Origin: Bacteroidales bacterium | GTDB taxonomy: Bacteria > Bacteroidota > Bacteroidia > Bacteroidales > UBA932 | Length of the DNA: 63,549 bases | Assembly: GCA_017550025.1 (NCBI GenBank) | Contig: JAFYLU010000096.1 | Coordinates: forward strand, 1 to 63,549 | Direction of reading: 5' to 3' | In this document: in pieces, positions 29,886-52,341 of the stretch | Layout of the letters: every line of letters starts with the position of its first letter | How positions within the stretch are numbered: the stretch's first letter is position 1 | Program-made: the position numbers and the translations under genes | The notes under the pieces: model-generated | The model's input: the letters and a program-made list of their open reading frames with translations, nothing else | The model's database searches: none | What the model was told of the DNA's origin: nothing

Positions 29886-30215
29886 CTATGCTACGGCTAC
29901 AGCCTGATTCGAATTCTTGCTCTCCCTGCCGGCGCTGCTGATGATCTTCTCGGCCTTGGCCATGGATTTCTGCATCATGCCGATATGCTGCAGGTCAGCC
30001 TTCTGATGGAGCAGCATCCTGTTCATGGCGACGAACATCTGCGAGCATTCCTCGACCACCTGCGGGTCGGCAGGAAGTCCGCCGTTCTCGATCACGGCCT
30101 GATAGGTGTGGAAGATTGCCGCTACTTCAGCGGCTGCCTCGGTGAGATTGTCGATGCATTCGAGTGCATTCTTCAGCGACTTCGCGCTGATGTTTTTTGA
30201 ATTAGTGTAGAGCAT
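29886..30215 (-). CDS. Helical phage protein controlled by leader RNA A
   Basis: 109 residues starting MLYTNSKNISAKSL. Helical throughout (NALECIDNLTEAAAEVAAIF, RMLLHQKADLQHIGMMQKSM). The start is set at 30215 because the structured leader ends just before it and the longer frame would run into the leader. It is the first gene of the tape-measure-side cluster. The first codons contain the X2 strand that can pair with the leader. Function unknown. Confidence 0.6.
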   Translation of the reverse strand: MLYTNSKNISAKSLKNALECIDNLTEAAAEVAAIFHTYQAVIENGGLPADPQVVEECSQMFVAMNRMLLHQKADLQHIGMMQKSMAKAEKIISSAGRESKNSNQAVAVA

Positions 30216-30405
30216 AACTAATGGTATTAAAAAAATCCAGCCGTTACGGGGTGCTCTACAACTCATACCTTGCGGCGAAGAATCAGTCTCAGCTTTCGCA
30301 TTCGACCCCCTGGCTGGAAAAATATATTTCTATTGTAAGTATCCTCGGTTCGAGGTTGCCGCGAATAGAAAAGTATGTAAGAGTTATAGAGCGAGAGCAA
30401 AGGTA
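30216..30405 (-). ncRNA. Structured leader RNA A, with promoter
   Basis: TACCTTTG (30398-30405) is followed within a few bases by X1 (30381-30392). X1 pairs over 12 bp with X' (30253-30264). The core block is 30324-30378 and the 12-nt block accttgcggcga (plus strand) is 30267-30278. A second stem, 30312-30318 with 30236-30242, is followed by seven Us (30229-30235) and then the start codon. X' can instead pair with 30206-30214, which includes the start codon. Order X1, stem 5', X', stem 3' is a crossing (pseudoknot) arrangement. Confidence 0.75.
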
Positions 30406-30465
30406 GTGAAATTTCTATCATCTCCAACACTTTCGGCAAAAAAACTTTTACAAACATCAAAAATC

Positions 30466-30486
30466 CCCCGGCACATGCCGAGGGAT
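30466..30486 (-). terminator. Terminator after the Panacea operon
   Basis: Minus strand CCCTCGGC-ATGT-GCCGGGGG then ATTTTTG, 20 bp past the stop of the 30.5-kb membrane gene. It separates that operon from leader A's promoter. Confidence 0.8.
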
Positions 30487-30506
30487 AGATCTGATCTTTA
30501 TTGAAA

Positions 30507-30854
30507 TCATTCGTTTTTGCCGTCCTTTATGTTTCCTTCAGGGAACATACCTCTCAATACTATGAAAGCCAAACCGAGAACATTTGCACTGGTCGTAGCC
30601 AGAAGTGCGACGAGTACTCCTTCGCTATATATAGTTATCTCTAACCCTGTCAGAACGAGTACGGCCAGAGTGAGCACGAGCCAGACAGGGACGATTATCA
30701 TCACCCATATAGAAAAGTGCTTCCTAAACTCGGTGTCTTGTTTGAACCTTGCCTTCTTTTGCGTCGAGAGACTGTCCTCATCTGGATTGTACATTGTTTC
30801 CGGGATGTTGCTCTCGGGGTTGATGTCTTCTATCGTCCACTCAATTTTTCCCAT
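30507..30854 (-). CDS. Two-helix membrane protein, candidate Panacea-partner toxin
   Basis: 115 residues. An acidic soluble N-terminus of about 50 residues precedes two membrane helices (FSIWVMIIVPVWLVLTLAVL; VLVALLATTSANVLGLAFIV) and a short charged tail. It overlaps the 3' end of the Panacea-domain gene by 14 bp, so the two are co-translated. Small membrane proteins are among known Panacea-paired toxins (family knowledge), making a toxin role reasonable. The same two-helix type also occurs alone in prophages, so an accessory membrane function is possible. Confidence 0.55.
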   Translation of the reverse strand: MGKIEWTIEDINPESNIPETMYNPDEDSLSTQKKARFKQDTEFRKHFSIWVMIIVPVWLVLTLAVLVLTGLEITIYSEGVLVALLATTSANVLGLAFIVLRGMFPEGNIKDGKNE

Positions 30855-31341
30855 CTTCTCCTTCTGATTTAATGGTTATGAGGGTCTTGAAATAGTTGTA
30901 GATGGAAACATCAGGTATTTGGTCGCCCCAATCGAAATCCTGGGTCTGTGTGGCATAATACCAAGGTGATCCGTCTCTGTGTGACCACTCTGTCAGTTGC
31001 CCGGCTGTCCATGCTCCGAAATGAGCAAGGGTAAAGTCTACGACCTTATTCAGCCTTGCGTCGTCTTGCAACTCCTTTGGGCAGGATGCGGTGGTGATCG
31101 TCATAAGGTTTTCTTTGAGCAAGCGGTTACGGGTCGTTGGGAATACCGGACCATAAGGCCACGCTTGAGGGTGCTCGTCCGTTAGTCTTTCATTGTAGAC
31201 TCTCAAATATATGCCGTATGCAATGTAGAGTAGTTTTTGCACTTTCGTGATATTGACGACAATCCCGTTCTCAATCGCTTTCCCGACGATATATTTGGCA
31301 ACATCGACGCTTTTGAACCTGTATGTGTCTGGAAATGTCAT
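30841..31341 (-). CDS. panA: Panacea-domain (DUF4065, SocA-like) antitoxin
   Basis: 166 residues with the DUF4065 signature: VDVAKYIVGKAIENGIVVN, KVQKLLYIAYGIYLRVY and AWPYGPVFPTTRNRLL. The domain is the promiscuous antitoxin module of SocAB/PanAT toxin-antitoxin pairs. It has its own promoter (TAAATTTG, 31367-31374) and is followed by a small membrane protein, then a terminator, forming a self-contained two-gene operon inside the late region. Expression in the lysogen is likely given its isolation from the late genes. Confidence 0.8.
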   Translation of the reverse strand: MTFPDTYRFKSVDVAKYIVGKAIENGIVVNITKVQKLLYIAYGIYLRVYNERLTDEHPQAWPYGPVFPTTRNRLLKENLMTITTASCPKELQDDARLNKVVDFTLAHFGAWTAGQLTEWSHRDGSPWYYATQTQDFDWGDQIPDVSIYNYFKTLITIKSEGEDGKN

Positions 31342-31366
31342 AATAGTTATGATTGTTTGTGTTCTA

Positions 31367-31374
31367 CAAATTTA
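31367..31374 (-). promoter_or_regulatory. Promoter of the Panacea operon
   Basis: TAAATTTG, 25 bp before the start codon on the minus strand, matches TAnnTTTG. Confidence 0.6.
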
Positions 31375-31471
31375 CAAATTATTTCGATTTGGCAATGCGA
31401 AGCATTCTGTTGTAACAGGTGTTCCCCTGCAATTATACTACCAAACATCATACGACTTGTTACAATATATG

Positions 31472-31509
31472 CAAGAAGAAACCCCACGGAGCTTCACAGC
31501 TGCGTGGGG
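31472..31509 (-). terminator. Terminator of the portal-to-endolysin operon
   Basis: Minus strand CCCCACGC-AGCT-GTGA-AGCT-CCGTGGGG followed by TTTCTTCTT, 33 bp past the amidase stop. Long, stable stem. Confidence 0.85.
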
Positions 31510-31542
31510 ACACATAAAAACAATCATGAACTGTTATGGGAT

Positions 31543-32145
31543 CTACATGCAGCAGATCCTTTGTATTGCCTTGAGATGTATGTCGATGATAGACTGCAGT
31601 CCTTCGTCGCTCATCAGGAACCTGCAGTCCTTCTCGTTGTTCATGAAAAGATTCTCCGTCAGGATTGCCGGACAGACTGTCTCCCTCAAGATTGCGAAGT
31701 TGGAATCCCAGTCAGGATCTCCGTCGCTGTGGTCTCCTCTGATCGGGAACCTGTCTCCGATGACCTCCTTTGCACACTCCCAGAATACGGCTGCGTACTC
31801 GTCGGATCTTGAACGTCCGGTGTAGGTGTGCACCTCCCATCCGGAGGCGGTGTTGTTCTCTCTGGCTGCGTTCAGGTGAACTGATATCAGAAGAGTCTGC
31901 GAGGCGTCATTCCGCGATGCAATCCGGTTTGCCCTCCTGCACCTTTCGCTCAATGCGATGTCATTCTCTTCCGGAACCAATACGCAGTGGGGGAGTCCCA
32001 GCCTTGCAAGCCCTTGCGAAATACCCTGTACTACCATTCTTGCGTATCTCCATTCCTGAAGATATGCTCCGTCGCTCCATATCGGCGACCTCTTGCCCGG
32101 CGTGTTCGAGCCGTGGCCGTTGTCAAGTATGATCATTCGTATCAT
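31543..32145 (-). CDS. N-acetylmuramoyl-L-alanine amidase (endolysin)
   Basis: About 200 residues, Amidase_3 family. Zinc ligands are visible as DNGHG, EWRYA and SVHLNA. The catalytic Glu is in LTENLFM. It cleaves the lactyl-peptide bond of peptidoglycan at lysis. There is no signal peptide, so export depends on a holin or equivalent. Start set at 32145, which overlaps the upstream stop by ATGA; a further ATG lies at 32157. It is the last gene of the portal operon and sits away from the membrane cluster at 12-13.6 kb. Confidence 0.9.
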   Translation of the reverse strand: MIRMIILDNGHGSNTPGKRSPIWSDGAYLQEWRYARMVVQGISQGLARLGLPHCVLVPEENDIALSERCRRANRIASRNDASQTLLISVHLNAARENNTASGWEVHTYTGRSRSDEYAAVFWECAKEVIGDRFPIRGDHSDGDPDWDSNFAILRETVCPAILTENLFMNNEKDCRFLMSDEGLQSIIDIHLKAIQRICCM

Positions 32146-32504
32146 TTCTCGTCCCATTTTTCTCTTATATCCCTGGCCACCTCTTCAGTGAAGCCATACA
32201 TCAGCTGTTTTGCGATCGAAGAGTAAGCGCCGAAGACGAAACGGTTGTGTATCCGCTTTCCCTTGCGCTTCCTTCCGTTCTTTCCGAGCCGCTTCATGTC
32301 GAGGAAACGCTCATATACGGGGTGCTTGAAGTCAAGCTGACCGTCAAGCCCGTCGCCGCCGGAGACCGTAAGCCTTCTGCCACGCAGCAAGGTTCCGGAC
32401 CGTCTGTGAAGACGCGTGGAAATGGCTCTTTCCTGCCTTTCCAGCATGGTCTCACCCTCTTCCTGCAGGACCCTTCTGACAAATGCTCCTTTTATATCCA
32501 TCAC
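32142..32504 (-). CDS. Head-tail connector (HK97 gp10-like)
   Basis: 120 residues, basic, with the HK97 gp10-like pattern: an N-terminal helix ending RRVLQEEGETMLERQERA, then RRSGTLLRGRRLTVSGGD and a C-terminal GFTEEVARDIREKWDE helix. Its position is between portal/connector genes and endolysin, with 4-bp overlaps on both sides. Family assignment is by pattern. Confidence 0.55.
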   Translation of the reverse strand: MMDIKGAFVRRVLQEEGETMLERQERAISTRLHRRSGTLLRGRRLTVSGGDGLDGQLDFKHPVYERFLDMKRLGKNGRKRKGKRIHNRFVFGAYSSIAKQLMYGFTEEVARDIREKWDEK

Positions 32505-32938
32505 TCAAGGACTATCTCTATGCTATAGCCGCACCAGCCTCCGAATATCCCTGATTCCGGCACGATATCCACAGATGAGAGGTCAAACCCGCAGAGGGCA
32601 GGGCACTCTCCTCCTGTAATGTCATCCATGAATTTTGAGAGGATACAGCCGCACAGTTCGGCCAGCCGGGAGTATGTTTCTTCTTCAAGCTGCTCCGTAA
32701 GGGCAGGACCGTCAATCTTGGCCAAGGCAAAGAAGGCGAGAGTGATGTTCGAATCAAGACTGTCGACATCTCCTGATGACGACATCTCCGGCCTTGCGAC
32801 TACAATCTGATCGCCTGACTTTCTTGCGAGCTTCGTCACCGCATCGTTCTGGCGGGTAACAATCACGGCCTTGCGGCCAGAAGCAGCGAAGTCACGGAGA
32901 TAGTTATTTACCCTGATCAGTCTTTTTATTGCGCTCAT
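32501..32938 (-). CDS. Head-tail joining protein, unknown family
   Basis: 145 residues. Starts MSAIKRLIRVNNYLRDFAAS, with a central ITLAFFALAKIDGPALTEQL segment and an aromatic C-terminus (GIFGGWCGYSIEIVLE). The size, and order after portal and connector genes, fit a tail terminator or neck protein. It overlaps the upstream gene by 35 bp and the downstream by 4 bp. No specific family recognised. Confidence 0.55.
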   Translation of the reverse strand: MSAIKRLIRVNNYLRDFAASGRKAVIVTRQNDAVTKLARKSGDQIVVARPEMSSSGDVDSLDSNITLAFFALAKIDGPALTEQLEEETYSRLAELCGCILSKFMDDITGGECPALCGFDLSSVDIVPESGIFGGWCGYSIEIVLE

Positions 32939-33812
32939 ATCTTTGGTTTTCCTTATAATTTGTCCACATCAGGCTGAATATTGAGAACAAAGGCTCTTGA
33001 TCTACCCTGTCGATGGTGCCTATGGTCTGGTCCCTCGCTATCTGCACGAGAAGATCATTCCAGCTGAATGAGACATCTGAATGTCCGGCCTCTTCCGAAG
33101 CGAACAGCAGCGACATGTTCACTGCTTCTCCGTCAATAATGACAGTATCCGTCTGCAGGTATTTCAGGCAGGCCGCAAACCACATCATTATGAGATTCTT
33201 CTGCCAGGACAACAGGCGGGAAACGCGCTTCACATCCTTGTGGAAGGTCGCGTTGTCCACATCTGAAACAAATCTTCCGCATCGATTCGCCTTGTTGCTG
33301 CGCCTTCTGTAAAGATGCGCAATGCATTCGTCAAGATCCTGCACATCATGACTCTGGAAGAATGCATTGAGGGCTGTCGCGGCGTGCCGGAACTCTCCGA
33401 ACGAGAGGTCCTGCAGCAGGTCAGCCGGTCCGATCAGGGGGCGGCCGAATACCCCCCTGATCTCCGGCAAGGAATTAACGACGGAAGCGTACGCGAGTTT
33501 AGCCCCATCGCCAGTGTCCTCATCTTCTGTAAACAGATATCCGAGACAGCTGTCGCACAATCTGTAGACATTCTCGGCATGTCGTGCCCTTCTCGCGGGG
33601 TATCGCATCCTGCGTCTGAAAGCCCGTCCGGAAGGCCTTATGCCGAGGAAAAAGTAAAGTACTCTGACAGAGAAGTCCAGAGTGGACAGTCCTTGCCTGG
33701 TGCATTCGTCATATATGCGGAATACACCCTGTATCTGTTCAGCGCTCATCTCATCCCAGGATGATGGGATGAGACCTTTGCGCCCGGTTCCGTATATTTC
33801 TATTTCAGTCAT
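32904..33812 (-). CDS. Phage structural-module protein, unknown
   Basis: 302 residues. Helical N-terminal half (SSWDEMSAEQIQGVFRIYDE, DFSVRVLYFFLGIRPSGRAF), then a basic stretch (RRRMRYPARRARHAENVYR). The C-terminus contains LLVQIARDQTIGTIDRVDQE and IFSLMWTNYKENQRYER. Its start codon overlaps the previous stop by one base. It lies between the DUF6712-like connector and the neck protein. Possibly a tail or connector chaperone. I recognise no family. Confidence 0.5.
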   Translation of the reverse strand: MTEIEIYGTGRKGLIPSSWDEMSAEQIQGVFRIYDECTRQGLSTLDFSVRVLYFFLGIRPSGRAFRRRMRYPARRARHAENVYRLCDSCLGYLFTEDEDTGDGAKLAYASVVNSLPEIRGVFGRPLIGPADLLQDLSFGEFRHAATALNAFFQSHDVQDLDECIAHLYRRRSNKANRCGRFVSDVDNATFHKDVKRVSRLLSWQKNLIMMWFAACLKYLQTDTVIIDGEAVNMSLLFASEEAGHSDVSFSWNDLLVQIARDQTIGTIDRVDQEPLFSIFSLMWTNYKENQRYERNKKTDQGK

Positions 33813-34720
33813 CAGCAGCTGAAGAATTTATTGCGTGGATCATTGTCTGGGATCAGCTTGACTTTGCCCCAACCTCCCTCATTCTCGCCAAGGCATGACT
33901 GTATGTCCTCCTTGGCGACGGACGCGTCATCGGCAATGTTCTCAAGGTACCATTTTATTTCCTGGAGCGTGGCTTTGCTGAATTCGTTGTTACCCTGATA
34001 TGACGGTGCGAAGCGTCGGGCCACCATCATAGGGAACACAGACAGGGACCATCTGCGTACAGCGAGAGCCAGTGCTTCAAGAATGACATACCTTCTGGCG
34101 TTATATGCCAGAGCGCTGTCGGGGTTGGACCTTATTTCAGACAAGCTGACTGCTCGCAAGAATCTTTCCAGCTTTGTCCGCTGCACCTCTACGAACAGCG
34201 GCAGCAGGAGATGGAATGTATAGAGGCTTCCGTCTATCGGGAACACCTTCTCAAGTTCATCGACAGTCTGAATCAGAGATTCGTTTTCAGCAAGCGAAGT
34301 TCCCCATGTATCCTTGTCGGAGTCTATGTATCGCCATAATCCGTCAAGCGCCCGATAATATTTCTCCTGCAGCTCCCTGTCATCACGGTCAATCATCCAC
34401 TCGAACGGCATCTTCTCTCCTTCCTCCACCTTCATCTTACGGCCCGTATCCTCATGACTGATGAGGTTCTGCTTCGCCCAGTTGCGGATGGCAAGACAGG
34501 CTATCGGGAGGCGAACAGCGTCTACAAGCTTCATGTCCGGCGACGCACTGTCATAGGAGTCCTCGGCTGCAGTGATGATATCCCTGCCTACGATAGAGGC
34601 AACGGTGTCAGTTGCTGCAGAGATCTCTGCAGCTATCGTATTGAAGTTGTTGCTGGAGTAGAACAGCCCTGTGAGTTCATACAGCTCGTTGGAACCGTTA
34701 CCGAATTTGTCGAAAAGCAT
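33812..34720 (-). CDS. DUF6712-like phage head completion protein
   Basis: 302 residues. The pattern NTIAAEISAATDTVASIVGR, VDAVRLPIACLAIRNWAKQN and FPIDGSLYTFHLLLPLFVEV fits the DUF6712 family that follows the portal in Bacteroidales phages. Two homologous halves are suggested. It starts two bases after the portal stop, so it is co-transcribed. A connector or adaptor role at the portal vertex is inferred. Confidence 0.62.
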   Translation of the reverse strand: MLFDKFGNGSNELYELTGLFYSSNNFNTIAAEISAATDTVASIVGRDIITAAEDSYDSASPDMKLVDAVRLPIACLAIRNWAKQNLISHEDTGRKMKVEEGEKMPFEWMIDRDDRELQEKYYRALDGLWRYIDSDKDTWGTSLAENESLIQTVDELEKVFPIDGSLYTFHLLLPLFVEVQRTKLERFLRAVSLSEIRSNPDSALAYNARRYVILEALALAVRRWSLSVFPMMVARRFAPSYQGNNEFSKATLQEIKWYLENIADDASVAKEDIQSCLGENEGGWGKVKLIPDNDPRNKFFSC

Positions 34721-34722
34721 AA

Positions 34723-36078
34723 TTACTGGTTTTTAATCCTGTCGGAAGAACTCAAAGACTCTTCCGTCCTGACCGACTGGTGATAAAAGGCCAACTTGAG
34801 GTTTTTGCCGGGGAAATTGAAGGCAATAGCCTGATTGATTGACTGAAGTATTGTCTGCGATGCGATTTCCACATCCGAGTTGAGATACAGCTTGAAGGCA
34901 TACAGCATTTCGGATCCGGAAGCGAGCTTCCCGTTCACCATGATGTTCGACAGTGACGGATGCAGGCCCATTCCGCTTGTGATAGCCGAGACAGAAGCTT
35001 CGGATATCTTCAGCTGCGATTCCACAAAATCCTTGATCTTCTGGTCTATCGGCTCGATCTTCCACTCTGTCATGTGTCCCAGGTCGTCCGGAACATCGAT
35101 GGTGTGGATGAATTTTCCAGCGTTTTCCTTGCCGGTGAGTACCTGCGTCAGCGATTCCAGAAGTTTCATGGTGATTTCTGCAATCTCCGCTTCCACCTGG
35201 GCGTCTGTCCATTCAGGGTACTGCTTGTGCAGGATATCACGGCGGTAGTCCCAGTATGAGCTTGGCGAATGGACATGGTAGGCCAGATTCAGACCGTTGT
35301 CGGTAACATATTTGAAGATGAGCGGGATTTCCGAGCCTCTGATGATCCATCGCAGCGCTCCCCAATATTGAGGGACGGAATACATGTCGCGGGAGAACGA
35401 GTATGTCCTGTTGTAAGAGGCGGAGACGGCATATTTGCCAGGGTCTCTCGGGTCGAATACGGGATATGACCTGATTCCGGACAGGCATTGGTGCTCATAA
35501 TCTCCTACGATGATGTGCTTGACATCTTCGAGCTTGCGACTGTCTGCCCATTCAAGTCTTGCGTTCTTGGCCGGAATATGCTCAAGAAGAGCAATCTTGC
35601 GAGGCTGGCCGATACGATGGCCACGGGTGAGGTGCTTCGCGTCGAAGAAGCCCTTCAGATGCAGGTAATCAGTAATGCAGCCCTTGAGATATGAGATGTA
35701 GTCCCAGCTGTCGAGCCATTCCTGGATCTGCTTGTCTTCCATCCACTGCTGGGTGATCTGGCCGTTCGTGTAGTCGGTTCTGCAAAGATGTGCTCCCTGG
35801 CCATAGAGGAGGCCCATCTGCCTCTCGAGGATTCCTGGCACAAGGTTGTTCTTGCTGATGACATTGCGAAGGTTTGAAGGCAGAAGATTGTCCGGTCCGT
35901 ATGGGACTATCTTGTGGGTGCCGGCTGACTGCCATGAGTGTTCCCAACTGCGCCCTTCGATGTCCAGGAACACGGAATCGAGACCGCCTCCGATGTGGTT
36001 GGAAAGCAAGAATACCTTGCCCTCACCGGCATCGGCCACAAAGGTATTTCCTGTAATCTGGTGTATTTTCTTACTCAT
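34723..36078 (-). CDS. Portal protein
   Basis: 451 residues. The portal pattern of Bacteroidales phages is seen: KIVPYGPDNLLPSNLRNVIS near the N-terminus, a wing region, and the stem-like SQLKISEASVSAITSGMGLH followed by SNIMVNGKLASGSEMLYAFK. It would form the dodecameric DNA gate of the capsid. It begins an operon with its own -7 box. It is separated from terminase and capsid by HicAB-1 and several small genes, an unusual split of the packaging module. Confidence 0.82.
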   Translation of the reverse strand: MSKKIHQITGNTFVADAGEGKVFLLSNHIGGGLDSVFLDIEGRSWEHSWQSAGTHKIVPYGPDNLLPSNLRNVISKNNLVPGILERQMGLLYGQGAHLCRTDYTNGQITQQWMEDKQIQEWLDSWDYISYLKGCITDYLHLKGFFDAKHLTRGHRIGQPRKIALLEHIPAKNARLEWADSRKLEDVKHIIVGDYEHQCLSGIRSYPVFDPRDPGKYAVSASYNRTYSFSRDMYSVPQYWGALRWIIRGSEIPLIFKYVTDNGLNLAYHVHSPSSYWDYRRDILHKQYPEWTDAQVEAEIAEITMKLLESLTQVLTGKENAGKFIHTIDVPDDLGHMTEWKIEPIDQKIKDFVESQLKISEASVSAITSGMGLHPSLSNIMVNGKLASGSEMLYAFKLYLNSDVEIASQTILQSINQAIAFNFPGKNLKLAFYHQSVRTEESLSSSDRIKNQ

Positions 36079-36107
36079 CCTTGAGTGTACTTAATCATTG
36101 AACAGCA

Positions 36108-36115
36108 CAAAGATA
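36108..36115 (-). promoter_or_regulatory. Promoter of the portal operon
   Basis: TATCTTTG on the minus strand, 29 bp before the portal start codon. Confidence 0.6.
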
Positions 36116-36177
36116 AATTCGCTTATGCACCTGATAAAGGACAATGTTCAGGAAAGATTTTTTCCTTAACATAATAA

Positions 36178-36201
36178 AAGGGCAACCTCACGGCTGCCCT
36201 T
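36178..36201 (-). terminator. Terminator of HicAB-1
   Basis: Minus strand AAGGGCA-(GCCGTGAGG)-TGCCCTT followed by TTATT, just past the hicB stop. Confidence 0.75.
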
Positions 36202-36221: not shown

Positions 36222-36620
36222 TTATAGAGAAACCGAACTAAGTTCGGAACCTATGCAATGGATGGCGTCAAGAATCTTCCTGACAGTCTTCTCGCCTGGA
36301 TATGCAGTACCGCTCTTATACTGCCTCATCTTACTTTCGTTGATACCTGCATACTGGGCAAACTTGCTGGCATTGATGAAGTCGAAGTCATTGAAAAATG
36401 ACGGAAGATCATACTGGAAACTGATAGTGTACCCTTCTGCGACCTCGAACCCTTCCGCTCTTGCGTCAGCAAGGGCTTCCAGTACACTTTCGTTGAAATC
36501 TTCCTTGGCAATGGCTACAGATTCACCGAACCCTCCGAAATAATTCCCTCCGAAGTGTTGTTCTGAACGGATGGAATACATTCCGTCAGTCCCTTTTTCT
36601 ATGATTGCTGTTATCTTCAT
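36222..36620 (-). CDS. hicB: HicB-type antitoxin (pair 1)
   Basis: 132 residues. The N-terminal partial RNase-H-like HicB fold is seen (IIEKGTDGMYSIRSEQHFGG, ALADARAEGFEVAEGY). It is fused to a C-terminal helix-turn-helix (NASKFAQYAGINESKMRQYKSG) that should bind the operon operator. It lies 55 bp downstream of hicA. A copy of AAAAGTTCTATG sits in the gap and an inverted copy lies before hicA, consistent with autoregulation by this protein. Confidence 0.85.
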   Translation of the reverse strand: MKITAIIEKGTDGMYSIRSEQHFGGNYFGGFGESVAIAKEDFNESVLEALADARAEGFEVAEGYTISFQYDLPSFFNDFDFINASKFAQYAGINESKMRQYKSGTAYPGEKTVRKILDAIHCIGSELSSVSL

Positions 36621-36675: not shown

Positions 36676-36858
36676 CTAAATCCCTGCCTGTTTCTTGATT
36701 GCCTGTAAGGTTCCGGTTGGAATCTCTTGGCCATCGTGCCGAGGAACTGCAAATTTGTTACCAGTGATAGGTGAATACCATTTTTCGTGGCGTCCTCCTT
36801 GAGTCAGCAGGTAGCATCCGTTCTTTCTCAGCAACTTCTTAAACTCTGAGGTTCTCAT
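36676..36858 (-). CDS. hicA: HicA-type mRNA interferase toxin (pair 1)
   Basis: 60 residues with the dsRBD-like HicA fold. Catalytic His24 is in GGRHEKWYSP. The core PRHDGQEIPTGTLQAIKKQAG is the family signature. It degrades mRNA when free of HicB. Start ATG 36858 follows a -7 box (TACTTTTG) and an operator-like half-site. The pair would stabilise the prophage or act in phage defence (inference). Confidence 0.88.
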   Translation of the reverse strand: MRTSEFKKLLRKNGCYLLTQGGRHEKWYSPITGNKFAVPRHDGQEIPTGTLQAIKKQAGI

Positions 36859-36949: not shown

Positions 36950-37249
36950 TCAAGAATTTCTCAGATGATCCTGCAGGTCGGGCTGGGAGTCGAGACGGTT
37001 GAACAGGTTGCGGTAGAGGTTGTCGAAGCCGTAGGCGCGGATGAAGATCTGGAACTGCTGACCGGCTATGGTCGTCCGGATCTTGAGGGAGAGGCGGTTC
37101 TTGGTCCGGTCAAGGTACTTCACGCGGATGTAGGTTGCTCCAGGATAGAGCAGGTGGATGAATGAGGCTTCCTCATGCAATTGCGGATCGTACTGGTTAC
37201 TCATTCCTGCTACAGGAAGAGTCTGAAGGGTTGAATTAGCGATAGGCAT
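36950..37249 (-). CDS. Small protein of unknown function controlled by leader RNA B
   Basis: 99 residues starting MPIANSTLQTLPVAGMS. The body (ASFIHLLYPGATYIRVKYLD, then LSLKIRTTIAGQQFQIFIRA) aligns by eye with the protein at 51793-52128 (ACKVHALFPHAEWIRVKNLG, VIITLKTAGMKVAAKGYGHA). The two are paralogues of an unrecognised family. Both are preceded by a structured leader of the same architecture. Slightly basic, with alternating beta-strands. RNA binding and autoregulation through the leader would be one explanation (speculative). Confidence 0.65.
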   Translation of the reverse strand: MPIANSTLQTLPVAGMSNQYDPQLHEEASFIHLLYPGATYIRVKYLDRTKNRLSLKIRTTIAGQQFQIFIRAYGFDNLYRNLFNRLDSQPDLQDHLRNS

Positions 37250-37440
37250 AGCTAATATGTATTAAAAAACTCCGACCTTAGGCTGCCTATCAATCAACAC
37301 CTTGCGGCGAGATCTGTTGCACCTTTCGGAGCAACGCCATAGTCGGAGTAACTTGTTTATATTTCTATTGTAAGTATCCTCGGTTTGAGGCTGCCGCGAA
37401 TAGAAAAGTATGTGTTGATTAATAGGCAAGGGCAAAGGTA
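37250..37440 (-). ncRNA. Structured leader RNA B, with promoter
   Basis: TACCTTTG (37433-37440), with TTG 19 bp upstream. X1 (37412-37427) pairs over 16 bp with X' (37285-37300), with a single U:G at the same place as in leader A. Core block 37359-37413 differs from A at only two positions. accttgcggcga is at 37299-37310. A GAAA-capped hairpin follows the core. The second stem, 37342-37349 with 37269-37276, ends in six Us. X' can also pair with 37241-37248 over the start codon. Confidence 0.78.
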
Positions 37441-46021: not shown

Positions 46022-46342
46022 CTATCTGTCTGGCATCTGGTACTCACACGAGATACTTATGACATTGTTCTCTGTGAGCTTAAGCCTCACCGGGAGGTCT
46101 GCGGATCCGAAAGATCTGCGGTCTCCGTTGTCAAAGACGACCACAAGCGCAAGGTTGCGCTTCATGCCTGGCGTAGCATAAGGGGCATTGTATGACAGTT
46201 CGATTTTCTTGAGTCTCCCAGAATCCTCTGGTGTGGCCGTCTCCTTGTATCTGCCGGAGGCAGGAATCATGGGCGATTCGTAGTATTTGCCGGGATTATT
46301 GTCAAGGTCGCAATAGAATACCGTGCGGATGATCTTTATCAT
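46022..46342 (-). CDS. Phage protein, unknown
   Basis: 106 residues, beta-rich (KIIRTVFYCDLDNNPGKYYE, LKKIELSYNAPYATPGMKRN, LALVVVFDNGDRRSFGSADL). It overlaps the upstream gene by 4 bp, so it belongs to the unit driven from the TGTAGTT array rather than the head operon. No family recognised and no membrane or DNA-binding motif seen. Confidence 0.55.
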   Translation of the reverse strand: MIKIIRTVFYCDLDNNPGKYYESPMIPASGRYKETATPEDSGRLKKIELSYNAPYATPGMKRNLALVVVFDNGDRRSFGSADLPVRLKLTENNVISISCEYQMPDR

Positions 46343-46902
46343 ACCTGTATGTCGTTAAGTCCGGAAGTGTCGAGAGCTTCGTTGATGTAATATATCTTTC
46401 TCAACAGGATCCTCGAGATTTTCTCGCGCTTGCTCTGCTCCTTCCTGTAGATTCTCTTGTGAATGGCATCAGAAGGATCGCATTCGACCAGCCCCCTTGA
46501 CAGTATGAAGGCATCCACGATATCCTTCTTGGCGAACCCGAGTCCTTCTGCCTTGAGGTAATAGGAATTGAGGTCGATGTCGAAGCATGCCTTGAGGGCC
46601 ATGTTCAGACGCTGCATGTCTCCTGCAGAATACCATAGGAACTTGTCGGCCAGGGACTGTGTCGCATTGCTTCGTGGAAAGCGCAGCTGTATGACGTGCT
46701 CTCCCTCCGGAAGTGAGACAGGCAGACCTGACTCCCGGCAGTGACTGATCAGCAGCTGGCCGAACAGATGGGTGGATCTGACCATGCATGGGCCATCCTT
46801 TTCCTCCGGTGGAAACAGATATCTTATATAATCTGTAAGCAGCTCGTTTTCGACTTTGAAAAATACGGTCATTTTTACATTTTTTATATTTCTGATATGC
46901 AT
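46339..46902 (-). CDS. Protein encoded next to the TGTAGTT array (possible binder)
   Basis: 187 residues (start MHIRNIKNVK; Met11 is a possible alternative). Mixed helical and strand content, with a basic C-terminal helix region (DAIHKRIYRKEQSKREKISR, ILLRKIYYINEALD). It sits immediately downstream of a 209-bp array of 13 TGTAGTT sites. By position it could be the replication initiator or autorepressor that binds them. I recognise no Rep family, so this is inference. Confidence 0.58.
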   Translation of the reverse strand: MHIRNIKNVKMTVFFKVENELLTDYIRYLFPPEEKDGPCMVRSTHLFGQLLISHCRESGLPVSLPEGEHVIQLRFPRSNATQSLADKFLWYSAGDMQRLNMALKACFDIDLNSYYLKAEGLGFAKKDIVDAFILSRGLVECDPSDAIHKRIYRKEQSKREKISRILLRKIYYINEALDTSGLNDIQV

Positions 46903-46909
46903 TTTCCCG

Positions 46910-47118
46910 AACTACAAAACTACATTTTGTTATTTGGCTGATTATCAGACGAATCACTGAAACTACAGTGTAGTTTTGCATGTAGTTTTGTAGTTCACTC
47001 CCAGAATCATCCGGAAAAATGTAGTTCAATGTAGTTTTTATGAAGCACGAAACTACATCATAACTACACCTTAATTCATTGATTACTATTATTGTAGTTC
47101 ATTGTAGTTCGTGTAGTT
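46910..47118. repeat. 13-copy TGTAGTT iteron/operator array
   Basis: TGTAGTT or its complement AACTACA occurs at 46910, 46918, 46961, 46969, 46981, 46989, 47020, 47030, 47051, 47062, 47093, 47103 and 47112 (left ends). Neighbouring copies are mostly 8-12 bp or 20-31 bp apart, about one or a few helical turns. The array lies between a -7 box (TAACTTTG, 47153-47160) and the 46902 start codon, beside an AT-rich segment. Replication origin and operator are both possible. Confidence 0.85.
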
Positions 47119-47375
47119 GTGGTTTTTGCGTTTCCAGCGGAGAAAACACCCACAAAGTTAGTCATTTTATCTCAATAAACAATCAAAGTAAGCAATAATA
47201 ACACATTGAAATACAAATGAATAACCATAAGAAATACTTATATGATGCTTGTTTTGCTTACAATTTTTCCGAATTCACCGCGAGGACCCTCCTTCCTATA
47301 TCTCTAAACCCCTTATGATAGGGGGTTGCAGGGGGATTCCGATGATTCTTGCTTTCATTTTTATACATAAAAGGT
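47119..47375. other. AT-rich intergenic segment beside the array
   Basis: Contains the -7 box TAACTTTG (47153-47160, minus) and an A/T-rich stretch (47161-47270). Inverted octamers GTAAGCAA (47188-47195) and TTGCTTAC (47254-47261) are present, then a GGGGGTTGCAGGGGG-type patch. No coding frame is convincing. Consistent with an origin unwinding region. Confidence 0.5.
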
Positions 47376-47434
47376 GTCAGAGGCCCCATCCGGAGCCTCT
47401 GACCTATCAAAAAAAAGCAGCCCCGGAGGGCTGC
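47376..47434 (-). terminator. Tandem hairpins after HicAB-2
   Basis: GCAGCCC-...-GGGCTGC (47417-47434), followed on the minus strand by a run of nine Ts (47408-47416), is a good terminator. Beyond it GTCAGAGGC...GCCTCTGAC (47376-47403) forms a second 9-bp stem. Confidence 0.8.
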
Positions 47435-47470
47435 TCTGTCTGCCGCACGAAGTACTGCTGAATTGCGTTA

Positions 47471-47875
47471 TCAAGCAAATGTCACGGCAGATAATTCCTC
47501 GCTGAATTTGCGTATGCTTTCCTCGATCTTTTGTTTTGTCTTCGGAGATGGGTTGCGGTAGCCGCTGATGTAGTGGCCGAGCTGCTTCTGGTTGATGCCG
47601 GTGATCTTCTCAAGACCGGCAAGAGAGAACGCATAGGCGTAGTACTGCAGGAACGACGCCACATCGTACTGGAAAAGGAATTCAACTTCCTCGAATGCTT
47701 TCCCTTCAGCCGCGTAGTACTTTTTCATATCCTCATATCCGGCTTCGAACATCTTGCGCGCTTCTTCCACAGTCTTGCCGGTTCCTGTGACAAGATATGT
47801 GATATCCTCGGCATCCATGTAGATGCTGAAAGTGCCATCTGACGCTCTTTCTATTACTGCTTTGACCTGTCTCAT
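47471..47875 (-). CDS. hicB: HicB-type antitoxin (pair 2)
   Basis: 134 residues. HicB fold (AVIERASDGTFSIYMDAEDI, GTGKTVEEARKMFEAGYEDM), then a helix-turn-helix (LAGLEKITGINQKQLGHYIS). Lies 31 bp after hicA-2 and is followed by a strong terminator. It differs markedly in sequence from the antitoxin at 36222, so the prophage carries two independent HicAB pairs. Confidence 0.84.
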   Translation of the reverse strand: MRQVKAVIERASDGTFSIYMDAEDITYLVTGTGKTVEEARKMFEAGYEDMKKYYAAEGKAFEEVEFLFQYDVASFLQYYAYAFSLAGLEKITGINQKQLGHYISGYRNPSPKTKQKIEESIRKFSEELSAVTFA

Positions 47876-47906
47876 AATTATTCTATTTGGTTTTAAAGCA
47901 GGGGGA

Positions 47907-48092
47907 TTAAATCCCCGCTGCTCGTTTGATTGCTTTCAGTGTTCCTGTGGCAACTTCCTGCTTTCCGTGATTACTCATCTGGAATACCATTCCTGTTTTC
48001 GGACTGTACCATAGGGGATGGCCTTGCTGTTGTCGCCCGGTGTCGTAGCATCCTGCTTTCTTCACCAATCTTTCTAATTCGTTGTACTTCAT
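47907..48092 (-). CDS. hicA: HicA-type mRNA interferase toxin (pair 2)
   Basis: 61 residues. His25 in QQGHPLWYSP and the signature SNHGKQEVATGTLKAIKRAA match HicA. Only about half its residues match the first HicA. The promoter is TATCTTTG at 48118-48125. Both hicA promoters continue as TTTGTAGTG, which suggests a shared start-site or operator element. Confidence 0.86.
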   Translation of the reverse strand: MKYNELERLVKKAGCYDTGRQQQGHPLWYSPKTGMVFQMSNHGKQEVATGTLKAIKRAAGI

Positions 48093-48117
48093 AAGACATT
48101 TGTTTAATAACGCACTA

Positions 48118-48125
48118 CAAAGATA
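48118..48125 (-). promoter_or_regulatory. Promoter of HicAB-2
   Basis: TATCTTTG on the minus strand, 26 bp before hicA. It is followed by TAGTG as in HicAB-1. Confidence 0.6.
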
Positions 48126-48207
48126 GTAATTTTGCTAACAAATACAAAGGATTGAGAAGAAAAGTTAGAAAAATAACTATCAAAATATATACCGGTTGCC
48201 ATGCGGG

Positions 48208-48555
48208 TTATCTCTTGCCTCTCAAAGACCTCTCCCGTCTGCGTGGCGCCAGCGAGTCGCACCAGCGCTCCCATTCCTCGATATCCCGTGGATTGCGATG
48301 GAGCACCTGCGCTCGGTCATGGAATGTGACGCTTATGGCTCCCTCGCTGACGAGGATACAGAGGAGCCCTACTGCAAAAGGACGATGCTTTTCCGAGAAT
48401 CCGTCAAGATATCGTATCTTCTCCATGACAGGGAATCCCTCGATCCAGTCGATGAAGTTCTGGCGGTTCCTGTCGATATGGACGGCATATTTCTCTCTGA
48501 AAGCCTTCACATCGGCCTCCGACCTCAATAGATGTTGTCTGTAGTCCTCCATCAA
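48208..48555 (-). CDS. Small protein coupled to the primase gene
   Basis: 115 residues, helical, with many charged and aromatic residues (SEADVKAFREKYAVHIDRNR, DWIEGFPVMEKIRYLDGFSE) and a very basic end (PRRRERSLRGKR). Its start overlaps the primase-helicase stop by ATGA, so it is co-translated. Function unknown; a replication accessory role is suggested by coupling. Last gene of the replication unit. Confidence 0.58.
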   Translation of the reverse strand: MMEDYRQHLLRSEADVKAFREKYAVHIDRNRQNFIDWIEGFPVMEKIRYLDGFSEKHRPFAVGLLCILVSEGAISVTFHDRAQVLHRNPRDIEEWERWCDSLAPRRRERSLRGKR

Positions 48556-51500
48556 TCCGGAAGGTCATCATCAAATATTCCCGGTGCTGCAGGGGTTGCA
48601 GGGGATTCGGCCGACTGTTCCTCGTCCTTGAATCCTCGTGCCACATCGATGTCTATGCCGTAAGCCTCGCGCACTGCATCATAGTCGAAGACCATGGCCG
48701 TGGTCACCTTCGATTTGCCGCACTCGGAATCTTCCGCCATGTAACCCGACACATTCTCGATCATGCGGAAACGCATGGACTTGGCCGTGCCGAGGAATTC
48801 AGGTGAATGGGTGAGATAGTATTTCAGCGTGTCGCGCGGGATGGTCTTGCTGTCCGTAGCCTTTCCCTCTGCTGCATAGAGATGGGCCAGACGAGGGAAG
48901 TTGATGCATAGATATCGCTTGCCATGGATGAATTCCATCGGGTGCTTCGACTCCAGGATAGCCACCGGCTTGTCGAAGTATTTGATGTGGTAGTCCACCT
49001 TCATCCATGCCCTGTTCGATGACACCATCACCTCGACGGTTTCCCAGAATCCGGACAGCTCATTGCTCTGGCGGGTCTTCAGGTTCTGTTCCACGCACAT
49101 GGAAGCCATTATCTCAAGCACCTGGCCGTAGTCGAAAGGGAAGTCCACCTTGTCGGCCACAGCCTTGTATGCTCCCAGGACGCAAGCCCAGTTGCGAAGG
49201 GTTCTGTCCTCTACATCATACTGTCTTGTTCTCTCGTTAAGGTCGGAGACCGCATCGTCCCATGCCTCGCGGAAGTTCTTGCGGAAGATGGGTCGCAGGG
49301 CCAGAAGCTGCTCTGTCAGATGGGTCAGTCCACGGCCCTCGATGATGCGCAGGATATCGAAGTCCGCTTTCTCCTGCGTAGTGAATGTAGTCTTGTAGAA
49401 AGTGAGGAAGAGGACTCGGCTGAAAATGGCGATATCGGCCGTCGGCATCTCCTGTCCGGAGATCACGACTCCACAGTCCACGGCCGTAACCTCGCGCTTC
49501 TTGTCCTCGAGGTTCATCCTGGATCTTCCTGTACCGTCCCACAGGCCCTTGATGAACTCCCTTCTCTCACGGTCGAGGTCGTTCTTGTACTCGTCCAGAT
49601 GGACGATCGCGTTGGAAACCTCGGCCACGGCCTCCGCGAGTGCAGCCTTGGTCGAGTTGCTCAAGTTCGGAGCCTTGTTGTTGGTTATGAAGAAGGCCAT
49701 CAGCGACTGTCCGAGGGCTGACTTTCCCGTTCCTTTTGGTCCGAACAGATTCAGGATAGGGAATGACACGGTCACATTCGTGACGATATCCTTGAACAGG
49801 GAAGCCACGAGGAAACAGAGCCCCACCTTGGCATTGTCACCGAAGACCTTCACAAGTCTCTGCGCATGCTCGCGCATGGTGACATCGTTCGCATGGATCC
49901 TGACGAAGCGTCTCTGCAGCTGATACCCTCCCGGATTGTCCATGGTGTCAATGCCTCGTCCCGGGATGTAGAACTTCTGTCCTCTGATCTCCACAACTCC
50001 GTACTTGTTGGCCTCGACGAATGTGTCTCCGTCAAGACCTCCGTTGCCCCATGCGTAGAAGCCCCACTTCTTCTGCCAGCCCAGCTGCTTGATTTCGTCG
50101 GCCGAAGGGGTTCCGTCATACAGATATTTCTTCAGGACCTTCAGCTCTGCATTACTGGCGTCCCATACGAAGTTGCCGGCGCTCTCCACGCGTACATTAA
50201 AGTCGGTGAAGCTGACCAACTCCGACTGCTTGAACTTTATCACGGCCTCCTCTCCGGATTCGTTCACGATATGGTATATTCGTCTCGCCTCCTTCTCATC
50301 GCGGATATGCAGGATAGGCTTCATGATGAAATTGCTCCAACATTTATCCTTGCTGTTGCCGCCGGCTCCGTAATAGCAGTTGTTCTTGGTGTAGAAGCCG
50401 TATTTGCTGAGCATCTTGTCAGCAGCCTCATCCTTCGATGCCTCGCGGACCTTCGCGTTCTTGGCCTTGTGAAACTCGGAGTTCCAGATCTTTCTCGTTC
50501 CCTTGTACTTTCCGGCCAGCTGCTCTATGTATATCTGCGCGGTGTTGTCGTCATTCACACATGCTATCAGCTCGCAGATATCAGTGATTGCTGCTGAAAG
50601 ATCCTGTCCGGCCTTGCCTTCAAGCTTCCTTGCAGCCACCCAGGGAATGTAGTCGTAGGTGTATGATGCAAGGCATTCGTCGAATTCGTGAGAATGCATG
50701 AGGAAATATTCGTCCGGATCCTTCCCTTCCGGAAGTTCCATGACCCTGACGCTGAATCCTTCCTCGGTAAGGGCCTTGCCATGATCTACCGTTGCCTTGA
50801 CTCCGGAATCGTCACTGTCTCCGATGAGGATGACTCTCTTTATTCTCGCCGCCTTGAGCTTGCCTGTCTGCTCCGTGGTCAGCGCGGTACCCATAGGGGC
50901 CACGGCATTGGACTGGCCTATCTGATGAAGACGCAGCACATCAGGATTGCCCTCGCAAAGGATAACCGTCTCTGTAGCCCTGATCTTGCTCTGTGCCTGG
51001 TAATATCCGAAAAGAATTTCCTTCTTCTTGAATATTTCTGTCTCCGAGGTGTTCAGGTACTTGGCGACCTTTCTTTCTGGATCTCCTTCCCCGATGAATC
51101 TTCCTGTGAAGCCGAGGATCAGTCCCGTGCGGCTGAATATAGGGAATATCAGCCTCTGGCCGAATGCGTCATAGTACCTTCCTGTTTCTTCGTCACGCTT
51201 GATGACTCCCGCATCGAGCAGGAGCTTGTCATCCTTCCAGCCCAATTCGTGGAAATGTTTCAGCAGGGAACCCCTGCCTGGTGCATATCCGACGCGGAAG
51301 GTCTCCACCATCTCCTCGTTCCATCCTCTCTTCTTGATGTATTCCTGGGCTGCAGGAGCCTCAAGGTTCCTGATGAAGAACTCTGAAGCAATCTTGTTTA
51401 CCTGACAGAGACGGTCGTGCCTGAAGCGCGCTTCGCGTTCCTCGGCCGTAGGTTCCTCCTTCTCGAATTCGATGCCGTTCCTCGATGCAAGATATTCGAT

Positions 51501-51746
51501 TGCCTCGATGTAGGTCATGTTCCTGAACTCCATGATGAAGGTAATGACATTACCGCCTTTCTTGCAGCCGAAGCAGTGGTAAAGGCCATTTCCGGGATTT
51601 ATGGAAAAGCTCGGAGTCTTCTCGTTGTGGAATGGGCAGCAGCACTGGTATCTGCTGCCGGCCCTTTTGAGCTCCAGTCCCTCGGACTGGAGTACGGACA
51701 CAATGTCCAGCTCAAGGATTTGAGCTATTATTCGCTGTGGTATCAT
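48552..51746 (-). CDS. Phage primase-helicase
   Basis: 1064 residues. The N-terminal CHC2 zinc finger has Cys37, His40, Cys58 and Cys61 (CCPFHNEKTPSF, YHCFGCKKGG). A DnaG-type catalytic core follows (RLIFPIFSRTGLILGFTGRF) with TOPRIM (VILCEGNPDVLRLHQ, RVILIGDSDDSGVKA). The C-terminal AAA/helicase-like ATPase has Walker A GPKGTGKSALGQ and Walker B IVHLDEYKND. It primes and unwinds phage DNA. Promoter TATATTTG and leader C lie upstream of the small gene preceding it. A run of ten Gs lies 24 bp before its start. Confidence 0.88.
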   Translation of the reverse strand: MIPQRIIAQILELDIVSVLQSEGLELKRAGSRYQCCCPFHNEKTPSFSINPGNGLYHCFGCKKGGNVITFIMEFRNMTYIEAIEYLASRNGIEFEKEEPTAEEREARFRHDRLCQVNKIASEFFIRNLEAPAAQEYIKKRGWNEEMVETFRVGYAPGRGSLLKHFHELGWKDDKLLLDAGVIKRDEETGRYYDAFGQRLIFPIFSRTGLILGFTGRFIGEGDPERKVAKYLNTSETEIFKKKEILFGYYQAQSKIRATETVILCEGNPDVLRLHQIGQSNAVAPMGTALTTEQTGKLKAARIKRVILIGDSDDSGVKATVDHGKALTEEGFSVRVMELPEGKDPDEYFLMHSHEFDECLASYTYDYIPWVAARKLEGKAGQDLSAAITDICELIACVNDDNTAQIYIEQLAGKYKGTRKIWNSEFHKAKNAKVREASKDEAADKMLSKYGFYTKNNCYYGAGGNSKDKCWSNFIMKPILHIRDEKEARRIYHIVNESGEEAVIKFKQSELVSFTDFNVRVESAGNFVWDASNAELKVLKKYLYDGTPSADEIKQLGWQKKWGFYAWGNGGLDGDTFVEANKYGVVEIRGQKFYIPGRGIDTMDNPGGYQLQRRFVRIHANDVTMREHAQRLVKVFGDNAKVGLCFLVASLFKDIVTNVTVSFPILNLFGPKGTGKSALGQSLMAFFITNNKAPNLSNSTKAALAEAVAEVSNAIVHLDEYKNDLDRERREFIKGLWDGTGRSRMNLEDKKREVTAVDCGVVISGQEMPTADIAIFSRVLFLTFYKTTFTTQEKADFDILRIIEGRGLTHLTEQLLALRPIFRKNFREAWDDAVSDLNERTRQYDVEDRTLRNWACVLGAYKAVADKVDFPFDYGQVLEIMASMCVEQNLKTRQSNELSGFWETVEVMVSSNRAWMKVDYHIKYFDKPVAILESKHPMEFIHGKRYLCINFPRLAHLYAAEGKATDSKTIPRDTLKYYLTHSPEFLGTAKSMRFRMIENVSGYMAEDSECGKSKVTTAMVFDYDAVREAYGIDIDVARGFKDEEQSAESPATPAAPGIFDDDLPD

Positions 51747-51769
51747 AGGATATCGGATTGTGAGGGCTG

Positions 51770-51779
51770 CCCCCCCCCC
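51770..51779 (-). other. G10 homopolymer tract before the primase start
   Basis: Ten consecutive Cs on the plus strand (Gs in the mRNA), 24 bp upstream of the primase start codon in the 46-bp gap after the small gene. Such a tract is prone to slippage or sequencing error. Confidence 0.7.
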
Positions 51780-51792
51780 GATGGATAGTCGG

Positions 51793-52128
51793 TTAAAGGA
51801 TAGTTCCTAAAAGGCCTGGGATGCGGCCGATACGGATGATGATGTTACGGACTGCATTGGCATGCCCGTAGCCTTTGGCTGCTACCTTCATTCCGGCGGT
51901 TTTGAGGGTGATGATGACACGGCCGTTGCCGAGGTTCTTGACGCGGATCCACTCGGCATGAGGGAAGAGAGCGTGAACCTTGCATGCGGTTGCGATGTTG
52001 TCGGGGTTGCAAGACGGAGACATTCCCTTGAAAGGGAGTTCCGGATACGATGCAGACTGTCGCGTTGCTGACGCAAGATGGCCGATACTGTGCTTTTCGG
52101 CAATCCCGATACTTTGGACTCTTGGCAT
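51793..52128 (-). CDS. Small protein of unknown function controlled by leader RNA C
   Basis: 111 residues from ATG 52128 (a later Met at about residue 36 is possible). The C-terminal 70 residues align by eye with the 36950-37249 protein, including the LP..GMS....P stretch and HALFPHAEWIRVKNL. Basic and glycine-rich near the end (AKGYGHANAVRNIIIRIGRI). First gene of the replication transcript, before primase. Its start codon lies in a 13-nt strand that can pair with leader C. Confidence 0.62.
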   Translation of the reverse strand: MPRVQSIGIAEKHSIGHLASATRQSASYPELPFKGMSPSCNPDNIATACKVHALFPHAEWIRVKNLGNGRVIITLKTAGMKVAAKGYGHANAVRNIIIRIGRIPGLLGTIL

Positions 52129-52341
52129 AGTTCGTAAAGTATGGGTGATATATAGAAAAAGACTGCTGTCTTTCGCTCCGCCAAGAGTCCAACCAGATAC
52201 CGAAATACCGTGGTTACGATGAAAGACAACAGCCTATGCTGATGGGTATATATGCAGTATACACCTACGGTCTGGGCATAAAAAATGCCACAGTTTTCGA
52301 TATTATGATTGTGACTCTTGGCGTAAGTCACTGCAAATATA
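52129..52341 (-). ncRNA. Structured leader RNA C, with promoter
   Basis: TATATTTG (52334-52341). X1 (52313-52322) is a perfect 10-bp complement of X' (52180-52189). X' extended (52180-52192) is a perfect 13-bp complement of 52114-52126, which contains the G of the start codon. A second 12-bp stem, 52221-52232 with 52163-52174 (one U:G), is followed by a U-rich run. The order of strands is the same as in leaders A and B, but the conserved core of A/B is not recognisable here. Confidence 0.68.

Follow-up and report, generated by a model that had tools for sequence, protein, structure and literature searches.

Privately addressed leader RNAs before three modules of a Bacteroidales prophage-like region, and their likeness to C4-type antisense RNAs

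Three leaders at the heads of phage modules

The minus strand of a 63,549-nucleotide contig from a Bacteroidales bacterium of the UBA932 lineage (GenBank assembly GCA_017550025.1, contig JAFYLU010000096.1, here called the window, or C103 among the 121 contigs of a 2.62-Mb genome) carries a prophage-like region that encodes a primase, a head protease, a portal-like protein, an amidase and a tape-measure protein, and no integrase turned up among the window proteins scanned. The subject here is three leader RNAs of this region, all on the minus strand: leader A (30405-30201), leader B (37440-37235) and leader C (52341-52109). Each runs into the start of a small gene, and each of these genes stands upstream of a different module, an arrangement that a sequence-only reading of this DNA had reported and that holds. 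Leader gene A (29886..30215, minus strand, 109 amino acids) precedes the tail module with its tape-measure gene (24581..28825); leader gene B (36950..37249, minus strand, 99 amino acids) precedes the head module with a gene whose relatives are annotated as portal (34723..36078); and leader gene C (51793..52128, minus strand, 111 amino acids), a distant homologue of gene B, lies upstream of a gene for a DnaG-type primase (48552..51746, minus strand).

Directly preceding each leader is a Bacteroidetes-type promoter box, TAnnTTTG(C), which, following the consensus in the Bacteroidetes literature, we take to be the -7 box. The RNA 5′ end is a segment, X; further on comes its complement, X′; and the region of the leader's own start codon, X″, is complementary to X′ as well. 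Read from 5′ to 3′, the promoter leads to X and then to a hairpin domain (P2) with arm A5′ after it; hairpin H3 and X′ follow, and arm A3′ and a U-run come before the start codon, which is within X″. The arms that flank X′, together with the U-run, likely form a terminator that should be exclusive with X:X′ pairing. Leader C has the order X, A5′, X′, A3′, U-run, X″ in common with A and B, and a different core.

In leader A the promoter box TACCTTTGC (30397..30405; all features of the three leaders are on the minus strand) is followed by X, CGCTCTATAACTCTTAC (30377..30393), and the P2 domain TTTCTATT...AATAGAAA (30327..30371), which has CCTC/GAGG inside it together with what reads from the sequence as the 5′ strand of a further helix, P1a, GCGGC. 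Arm A5′ is TCCAGCC (30312..30318), X′, the complement of X and of the start-codon region, is GTATGAGTTGTAGAGCA (30252..30268), and arm A3′, GGCTGGA, lies with the U-run at 30229..30242. The start codon (ATG at 30215) is in a hairpin, ATTAGT-TATGCTCTAC-ACTAAT (30201..30222), with X″ (30214-30206) mostly in the loop. Leader B has the same box, TACCTTTGC (37432..37440), then X, TGCCTATTAATCAACAC (37412..37428), A5′, ACTCCGAC (37342..37349), X′, GTGTTGATTGATAGGCA (37284..37300), A3′, GTCGGAGT, with the U-run (37264..37276), and the start-codon hairpin ATTAGC-TATGCCTATC-GCTAAT (37235..37256; ATG at 37249). Leader C has the box TATATTTGC (52333..52341), X, CGCCAAGAGTC (52313..52323), A5′, AGGCTGTTGTCTTTC (52221..52235), X′ (52178..52198), A3′, GAAAGACAGCAGTCT, with the U-run (52156..52174), and a start-codon hairpin ATACTTT...AAAGTAT (52109..52142; ATG at 52128) in which X″ is GCCAAGAGTCCAA.

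Leaders A and B are related by a 121-nucleotide (nt) direct repeat of 74% identity, and their cores are 88% identical across 84 nt, so that the two copies just behind phage promoters which the sequence-only reading had described are confirmed, as is its claim that each X′ matches its own start codon: the longest match between the leader interior and its own start region is 9 nt in A, 8 nt in B and 13 nt in C, against 4-6 nt to the starts of the other two. A scan of the window for a promoter, an X:X′ stem of at least 9, a U-run and, at an ATG, an X″ of 7 nt or more returned exactly leaders A, B and C, all on the minus strand, and none of 150 dinucleotide shuffles of the window gave any such triple. 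The window sites that match the complement of X′ over at least 10 nt are the leaders' own and two plus-strand 10-mers, neither of them at a start.

Covariation, private addresses and the choice between pairings

Beyond the window's three, 29 complete leaders were collected, with 22 in genomes of the window's genus and the others being L003, L004 and L013 from IMG/VR, L127, L135, L136 and one in genome G568; L076 is a partial leader besides. The leader family looks rare but repeated within a contig: there are four leaders per contig in G140 and G309, three in G052 and in the window, and two in G050 and G289. The leaders of G140, G309, G052 and G050 are termed type II.

Among 15 members, the near-duplicates L003 and L067 having been dropped, the leader interior matches its own start over a mean of 10.1 nt (7-18) against a cross mean of 5.1 nt (maximum 8), and the X:X′ score averages 14.8 for own and 7.9 for cross pairs, with a cross maximum of 17 between two leaders with similar X; neither difference was reached in 100000 permutations. 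The terminator arms are likewise own-matched (8.7 versus 6.0; 0/100000 permutations), as is P1a, which adjoins X′ (7.9 versus 6.1, a test that for leaders A and B picked ATACTTT with AAGGTAT/AAGGTGT and not GCGGC/GCCGC). A second comparison placed the three segments by independent anchors in 14 members (leader C is not in the alignment): the promoter served to place X, a MAFFT alignment X′ and the ATG X″. Over seven positions, which begin with the UG of the start codon and take in five more bases, X″:X′ is Watson-Crick in 98% of cells, while slid controls give 24-48% and permuted partners a mean of 66% and a maximum of 85%; X:X′ is paired in 94% of cells (slid 26-48%, permuted mean 59%). The A of X′ stands opposite the U of AUG in all 14, including five with a C in X. 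X and X″ differ in 11 cells of positions 1-7, and there X′ is Watson-Crick to X″ in seven (G.U to X in six, unpaired in one), Watson-Crick to X only in three, and G.U to X and unpaired to X″ in one. These figures argue strongly for the start-codon switch that the sequence-only reading had named as one possibility.

In 9 of 13 type II leaders the exact match to the leader's own start spans 17-18 nt, and X:X′ in this type contains G.U pairs and mismatches, X′ having been anchored there via its match to X″, so that this table is not independent. The covariance-model alignment A6, fitted to its own model, has 94.5% of cells pairing against 66.2% in shuffles, and 15 of 16 P1 (X:X′) pairs changed on both sides. 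A conserved hairpin holds the start codon in its loop, and its stem is own-matched (6.17 versus cross 4.68, 26 members, 0/100000 permutations; L003, L067 and G309_45k were dropped and the stem of L052 is only 4 bp) and varies among leaders, with ATTAGT/ACTAAT, ATTAGC/GCTAAT, ATACTTT/AAAGTAT, TTCAGT/ACTGAA, TGTTGT/ACAACA and AGTATT/AATACT. Since covariation, terminator and start-codon hairpin point to RNA, readings at the level of DNA, an invertible repeat or recombination between X and X″, were set aside.

P1 and P1a cross P2 and the arm helix A, so that only one set can form in a knot-free model. When 26 leaders were folded up to the U-run with X free or masked, mean terminator pairing rose from 0.16 to 0.88 upon masking; it was below 0.1 in 19 of the 26 with X free and above 0.6 in 25 with X masked, the gain exceeding 0.3 in 21 (in three rows, L041, G140_90k and G052_24k, another helix was scored as A). 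On these folding models local antitermination, with X:X′ excluding the leader's own terminator, is plausible. Such exclusion would be attenuation and differs from the action of the HK022 put sites, RNAs that modify polymerase to pass distant terminators, which the sequence-only reading had also offered as a model. Put-like action would suit the location of the leaders just after the promoters of phage modules, but their conservation is spent on antisense addresses and a local terminator, and to our knowledge put sites do not match their own start codon; this part of the earlier proposal finds no support and is hardly credible now.

The matches of each leader to its own start amount to a private address. 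On the six multi-leader contigs the 18 own matches are 8-18 nt long and the 40 cross matches at most 7 nt. Three of the G140 cassettes are 91-94% identical in the core and 93-94% in the gene body, yet identity falls to 32-56% for X, 50-75% for X′ and 57-67% for X″, from which it seems that the cassette was copied and then re-addressed at three places at once. Such selective divergence of addresses would be needless for a purely intramolecular switch, and so suggests that leader RNAs of one phage can meet each other in trans.

That consideration bears on the question of whether the leaders act only in cis, with X and X″ competing for X′ in one molecule and a ligand, a protein or polymerase speed setting the outcome. 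All three segments are on one transcript, the exclusion between P1 and the terminator is a cis property, and the X:X′ and X″:X′ duplexes are balanced on average, at mean energies of -22.7 and -21.1 kcal/mol with X:X′ the stronger in 14 of 28 rows (which include near-duplicates and two mis-anchored rows, L052 and G309_61k). A switch of this kind does not need a different address for each copy in one phage, however, and the core conserved between A and B is missing from leader C, which makes a common aptamer improbable. C4, an antisense RNA to which the leaders are likened below, acts in trans. The CI RNA of phage P4 does likewise, according to PMC4825925. A purely cis mechanism is accordingly judged unlikely, though it keeps real weight.

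Kinship with C4-type RNAs and a possible silencing circuit

At gathering thresholds Rfam recognizes only two tRNAs in the window, and to that extent the statement of the sequence-only reading that no Rfam family has this layout stands. At a distance it does not. The Rfam scan which that reading had proposed as a check, run permissively over 20 leaders, gave matches below threshold to c4-2 (RF02944, clan CL00128) in six, at 25.2-38.8 bits where the gathering threshold is 41, the best being L098 (38.8 bits) and L072 (37.3 bits) and the four others 25-30. A c4-2 search of 16 genomes at E ≤10 gave eight matches, namely six leaders, one true c4-2 and one weak match, and none in the window's own genome at that threshold. 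The true c4-2 (L138; G052:C17:37805-37883, 69.6 bits) follows TATCTTTGC and, read by eye, has an X with an 8-nt and an X″ with an 11-nt match to X′ at a start codon; the automatic finder did not report it, and these segments carry no chance estimate.

A model built from eight type II sister leaders (R3), searched against 192,761 bases at E ≤5, finds window leader B (37266..37350, minus strand, 34.6 bits, E 3.2e-8), L098, L052 and the true c4-2 (19.7 bits, E 0.0023). As R3 matches both B and c4-2, and A is related to B through the shared core, this chain of matches suggests that B is a distant relative of c4-2 and that A may be one as well; leader C appears joined to the c4-2-like leaders by layout only. 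A loose pattern of terminator stem, inner GG/CC with UAA and GNAA hairpin fits 23 of 36 sequences, A and B among them and C not, a count from which L071 and L138, which run past the U-run, have been taken from 25 and which has no chance control. What c4-2 and the matching leaders appear to have in common, in the alignments of the permissive search, is an outer terminator stem with U-run, an inner GG...CC beside UAA, a GNAA hairpin and a variable segment at the place of X′, whereas the window leaders add a 5′ domain (P2, P1a) and the start-codon hairpin, and a prophage-like region has 2-4 leaders, which stand ahead of its replication, head and tail modules.

Phage P4 has one unit, with termination of the Rho type and an antisense segment named seqB. 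According to PMC4825925, its CI RNA is processed from a longer RNA and pairs with seqA and seqC, and the antisense segment is linked to premature termination. The leaders show the same plan of a single antisense segment that has complements both upstream and downstream of it; unlike P4 they have a U-run terminator after X′ and come as several units with private addresses. C4 RNA (RF01695) is given for Proteobacteria and phages in PMC2864571, and PMC8198154 describes it as an antisense RNA that represses a target in its own operon, and as controlling the operon of the icd and antirepressor genes of P1. The likeness lies in the antisense RNA sharing an operon with its target; the difference is the lack of a C4 sequence match up to E 10, and targets that here are small genes heading structural or replication modules.

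Leaders of similar layout do precede some antirepressor genes elsewhere. Antirepressor loci over the Pfam cut-off numbered five in 198 order-level and three in 395 class-level genomes, and such a leader is present at three of the eight: in G416 directly before the gene, in G329 over the region just before the ATG and in G161 before a small open reading frame (ORF) that precedes the gene; the class-level scan added none. A fourth, in G568, found by a covariance model (R2, below), precedes a gene for a Bro-N and KilAC antirepressor. The finder is loose at these loci and gives chance matches elsewhere, so that the calls rest on position, promoter-like box and terminator together, and R3 did not find the antirepressor leaders. 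Antirepressors are the class that C4 controls in P1, and these leaders speak in favor of a C4-type reading.

Taken together, sequence and covariation show an X at fixed distance from the promoter box, an X′ of dual complementarity, arms that can form a terminator with the U-run, a start codon in a loop and an address private to each leader. On balance the leaders are probably self-targeting antisense RNAs of the C4/P4-CI type joined to an attenuator. In the ON state X would hold X′, the terminator could not form, polymerase would read on and the start codon would be free. Were X unavailable, the arms would pair, transcription would stop and a short RNA with an exposed X′ would be released. That RNA could pair with X of new transcripts and so renew termination, and with the start-codon loop of any read-through mRNA and so block its translation, which would make the OFF state self-sustaining; in a prophage the replication, head and tail modules would each be kept silent by their own address. 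The action of X′ in trans is the least certain step.

Several observations weigh against this interpretation. X′ could act only in cis. Of 12 leaders in another comparison six carry A and six C in X′ opposite the U of AUG, so that the A seen there in the aligned set is not general. In the folding of several type II leaders the terminator wins with X unmasked (G309_43k, G050_111k and G140_72k at 0.96-0.98, L041 at 0.88), and their U-run is only 3-4 T, so that one attenuation rule may not hold for all leaders; at 46-69 nt in the window leaders, the loop of arm A is also long for an intrinsic terminator. As for the kinship, 14 of the 20 leaders searched permissively, window A and B included, gave no c4-2 match, A, B and C have neither a c4-2 nor a C4 match in Rfam up to E 10, and R3 at E ≤5 missed window leaders A and C as well as the remaining type I leaders among the sequences searched (L004, L013, L045, L068, L069, L074, L075). 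Five of the eight antirepressor loci are without such a leader, and the window's own leader genes do not encode antirepressors.

The short and long forms proposed here also recall IsrK of Gifsy-1, for which PMC4825925 describes two isoforms from a single promoter, a short one that arises by partial termination and a long read-through one; the short form acts on the long one and activates its translation via pairing with an orf45 sequence. By analogy a short leader RNA would bind a silent read-through mRNA and switch its translation on, and X of the short RNA could capture X′ of the long one. X′ is complementary to the start-codon region itself, however, which favors blocking over activation, and the only match to RF01394 (E 2) is on the other strand of L004 and outside the leader, with none in further searches; activation of this kind is quite improbable. 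The copying of the cassettes, for its part, invites comparison with a type I toxin-antitoxin-like or selfish unit in which promoter, antisense leader and small protein spread together: a prophage can have as many as four leaders, G140 has three near-identical cassettes out of four, and one HicA toxin gene follows leader gene B while another is part of the module that leader C precedes. Yet the leader proteins are of about 100 amino acids, those scanned have no match to a toxin family, and each cassette heads a module, with phage genes following it, which makes this explanation very improbable.

The leaders, read as multiplied, distant relatives of C4-type self-targeting antisense leaders, would be new in that one prophage-like region has 2-4 copies, each privately addressed, ahead of its replication, head and tail modules. 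A broader picture, which is possible but tentative, is that the lytic modules of some temperate Bacteroidales phages are silenced by orthogonal, self-renewing antisense RNAs, one per module, with the cassette copied and re-addressed and the addresses also defining superinfection-immunity groups; superinfection specificity would then be readable from sequence. C4/P4-type control would no longer be confined to a single immunity operon but would reach several operons within a phage, head and tail genes included, and c4-2-like RNAs would gain a concrete role, their variable segment being an antisense guide to the leader's own start codon. The long own and short cross matches would also offer natural sets of orthogonal riboregulators in Bacteroidales.

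Searches for relatives and neighboring genes

The leaders L003 and L004 came from IMG/VR, and that of L013 was noticed in a locus retrieved via the primase. Leaders A, B, L003 and L004 were the basis of a first model (R1), which at E ≤0.1 had matches in 7 of the 250 genomes of the genus that were scanned, and R2, built from 11 matches, had them in 12 of the 250 at E ≤0.05, the window's own genome included in both counts; across the order R2 matched 4 of 344, G000 and G309, both of the window's genus, and G545 and G568, of which G545 was rejected as a leader by eye and G568 kept. These genome scans with R1 and R2 use stricter filters and lose weak matches. A DNA pattern search of genome contigs gave 14 stretches, with ten repeating contigs already in the set and L127, L135 and L136 being new leaders, while L132 fits the pattern but is by eye not a leader. 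As the loose finders also return repeat arrays and low-complexity matches, and chance matches in shuffled backgrounds (16 in 3.26 Mb, 4 in 1.96 Mb and 18 in 2.27 Mb), single weak matches were not counted.

Among INPHARED phages distant BLAST found no relative of leader A, and protein B and one type II form (G140_83k) had no match there; protein C alone against IMG/VR found nothing. Literature searches found no description of such leaders in Bacteroidales among the papers they listed, the subscription literature being mostly outside their reach. The leader search among the phages returned by the portal search covered Bacteroides phage BT-TP2, the top match, and not the Flavobacterium, Cellulophaga or Porphyromonas phages. 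BT-TP2 holds no convincing leader: R1 gave E 4.2 at 5150-5251, R2 (E ≤1) and R3 (E ≤5) gave nothing, and the triple finder gave two weak minus-strand matches. The one Rfam match there is an RT-3 RNA (L061:40783-40932, 125 bits), directly before an annotated reverse transcriptase.

The family of leader gene A (about 110 amino acids) is found again in L041, L068/L078, L075/L082, L071/L084, L052, L044, L105 and L050, where a few small ORFs separate it from a following large gene (889-1481 amino acids), this large gene being identified as a tape measure in the window only. For protein B a double-stranded RNA-binding domain (dsRBD) had been guessed from its sequence; Pfam at E ≤10 gave no dsRBD in 14 members, and comparison with PDB sequences gave S15 only, at E 0.43. 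At 2500-3100 of L005 the C-terminal end of gene B lies directly behind the apparent terminator of the upstream gene, the leader and the gene start missing, and this looks like a deletion of the leader cassette.

The two HicA genes of the window, one behind leader gene B (36676-36858) and one in the module behind leader C (47907-48092), both on the minus strand, have Pfam E of 2.7e-17 and 2.4e-9, and each is followed by a small gene with a weak helix-turn-helix (HTH) match (36222-36620 and 47471-47875). Between the amidase gene and leader A is an antitoxin-like gene with a SocA/Panacea domain (30841-31341, minus strand, E 4.9e-13). An array of TGTAGTT/AACTACA words in both orientations at about 46900-47210, with comparable arrays in L013-L016 and L042, may represent an origin or a set of iterons. 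A gene for a Cro/CI-type HTH protein (53206-53568, plus strand, HTH_26 E 6.4e-5) is transcribed divergently from the primase operon, and near it lies a tRNA-Leu gene (54528-54610, plus strand) that may be the attachment site.

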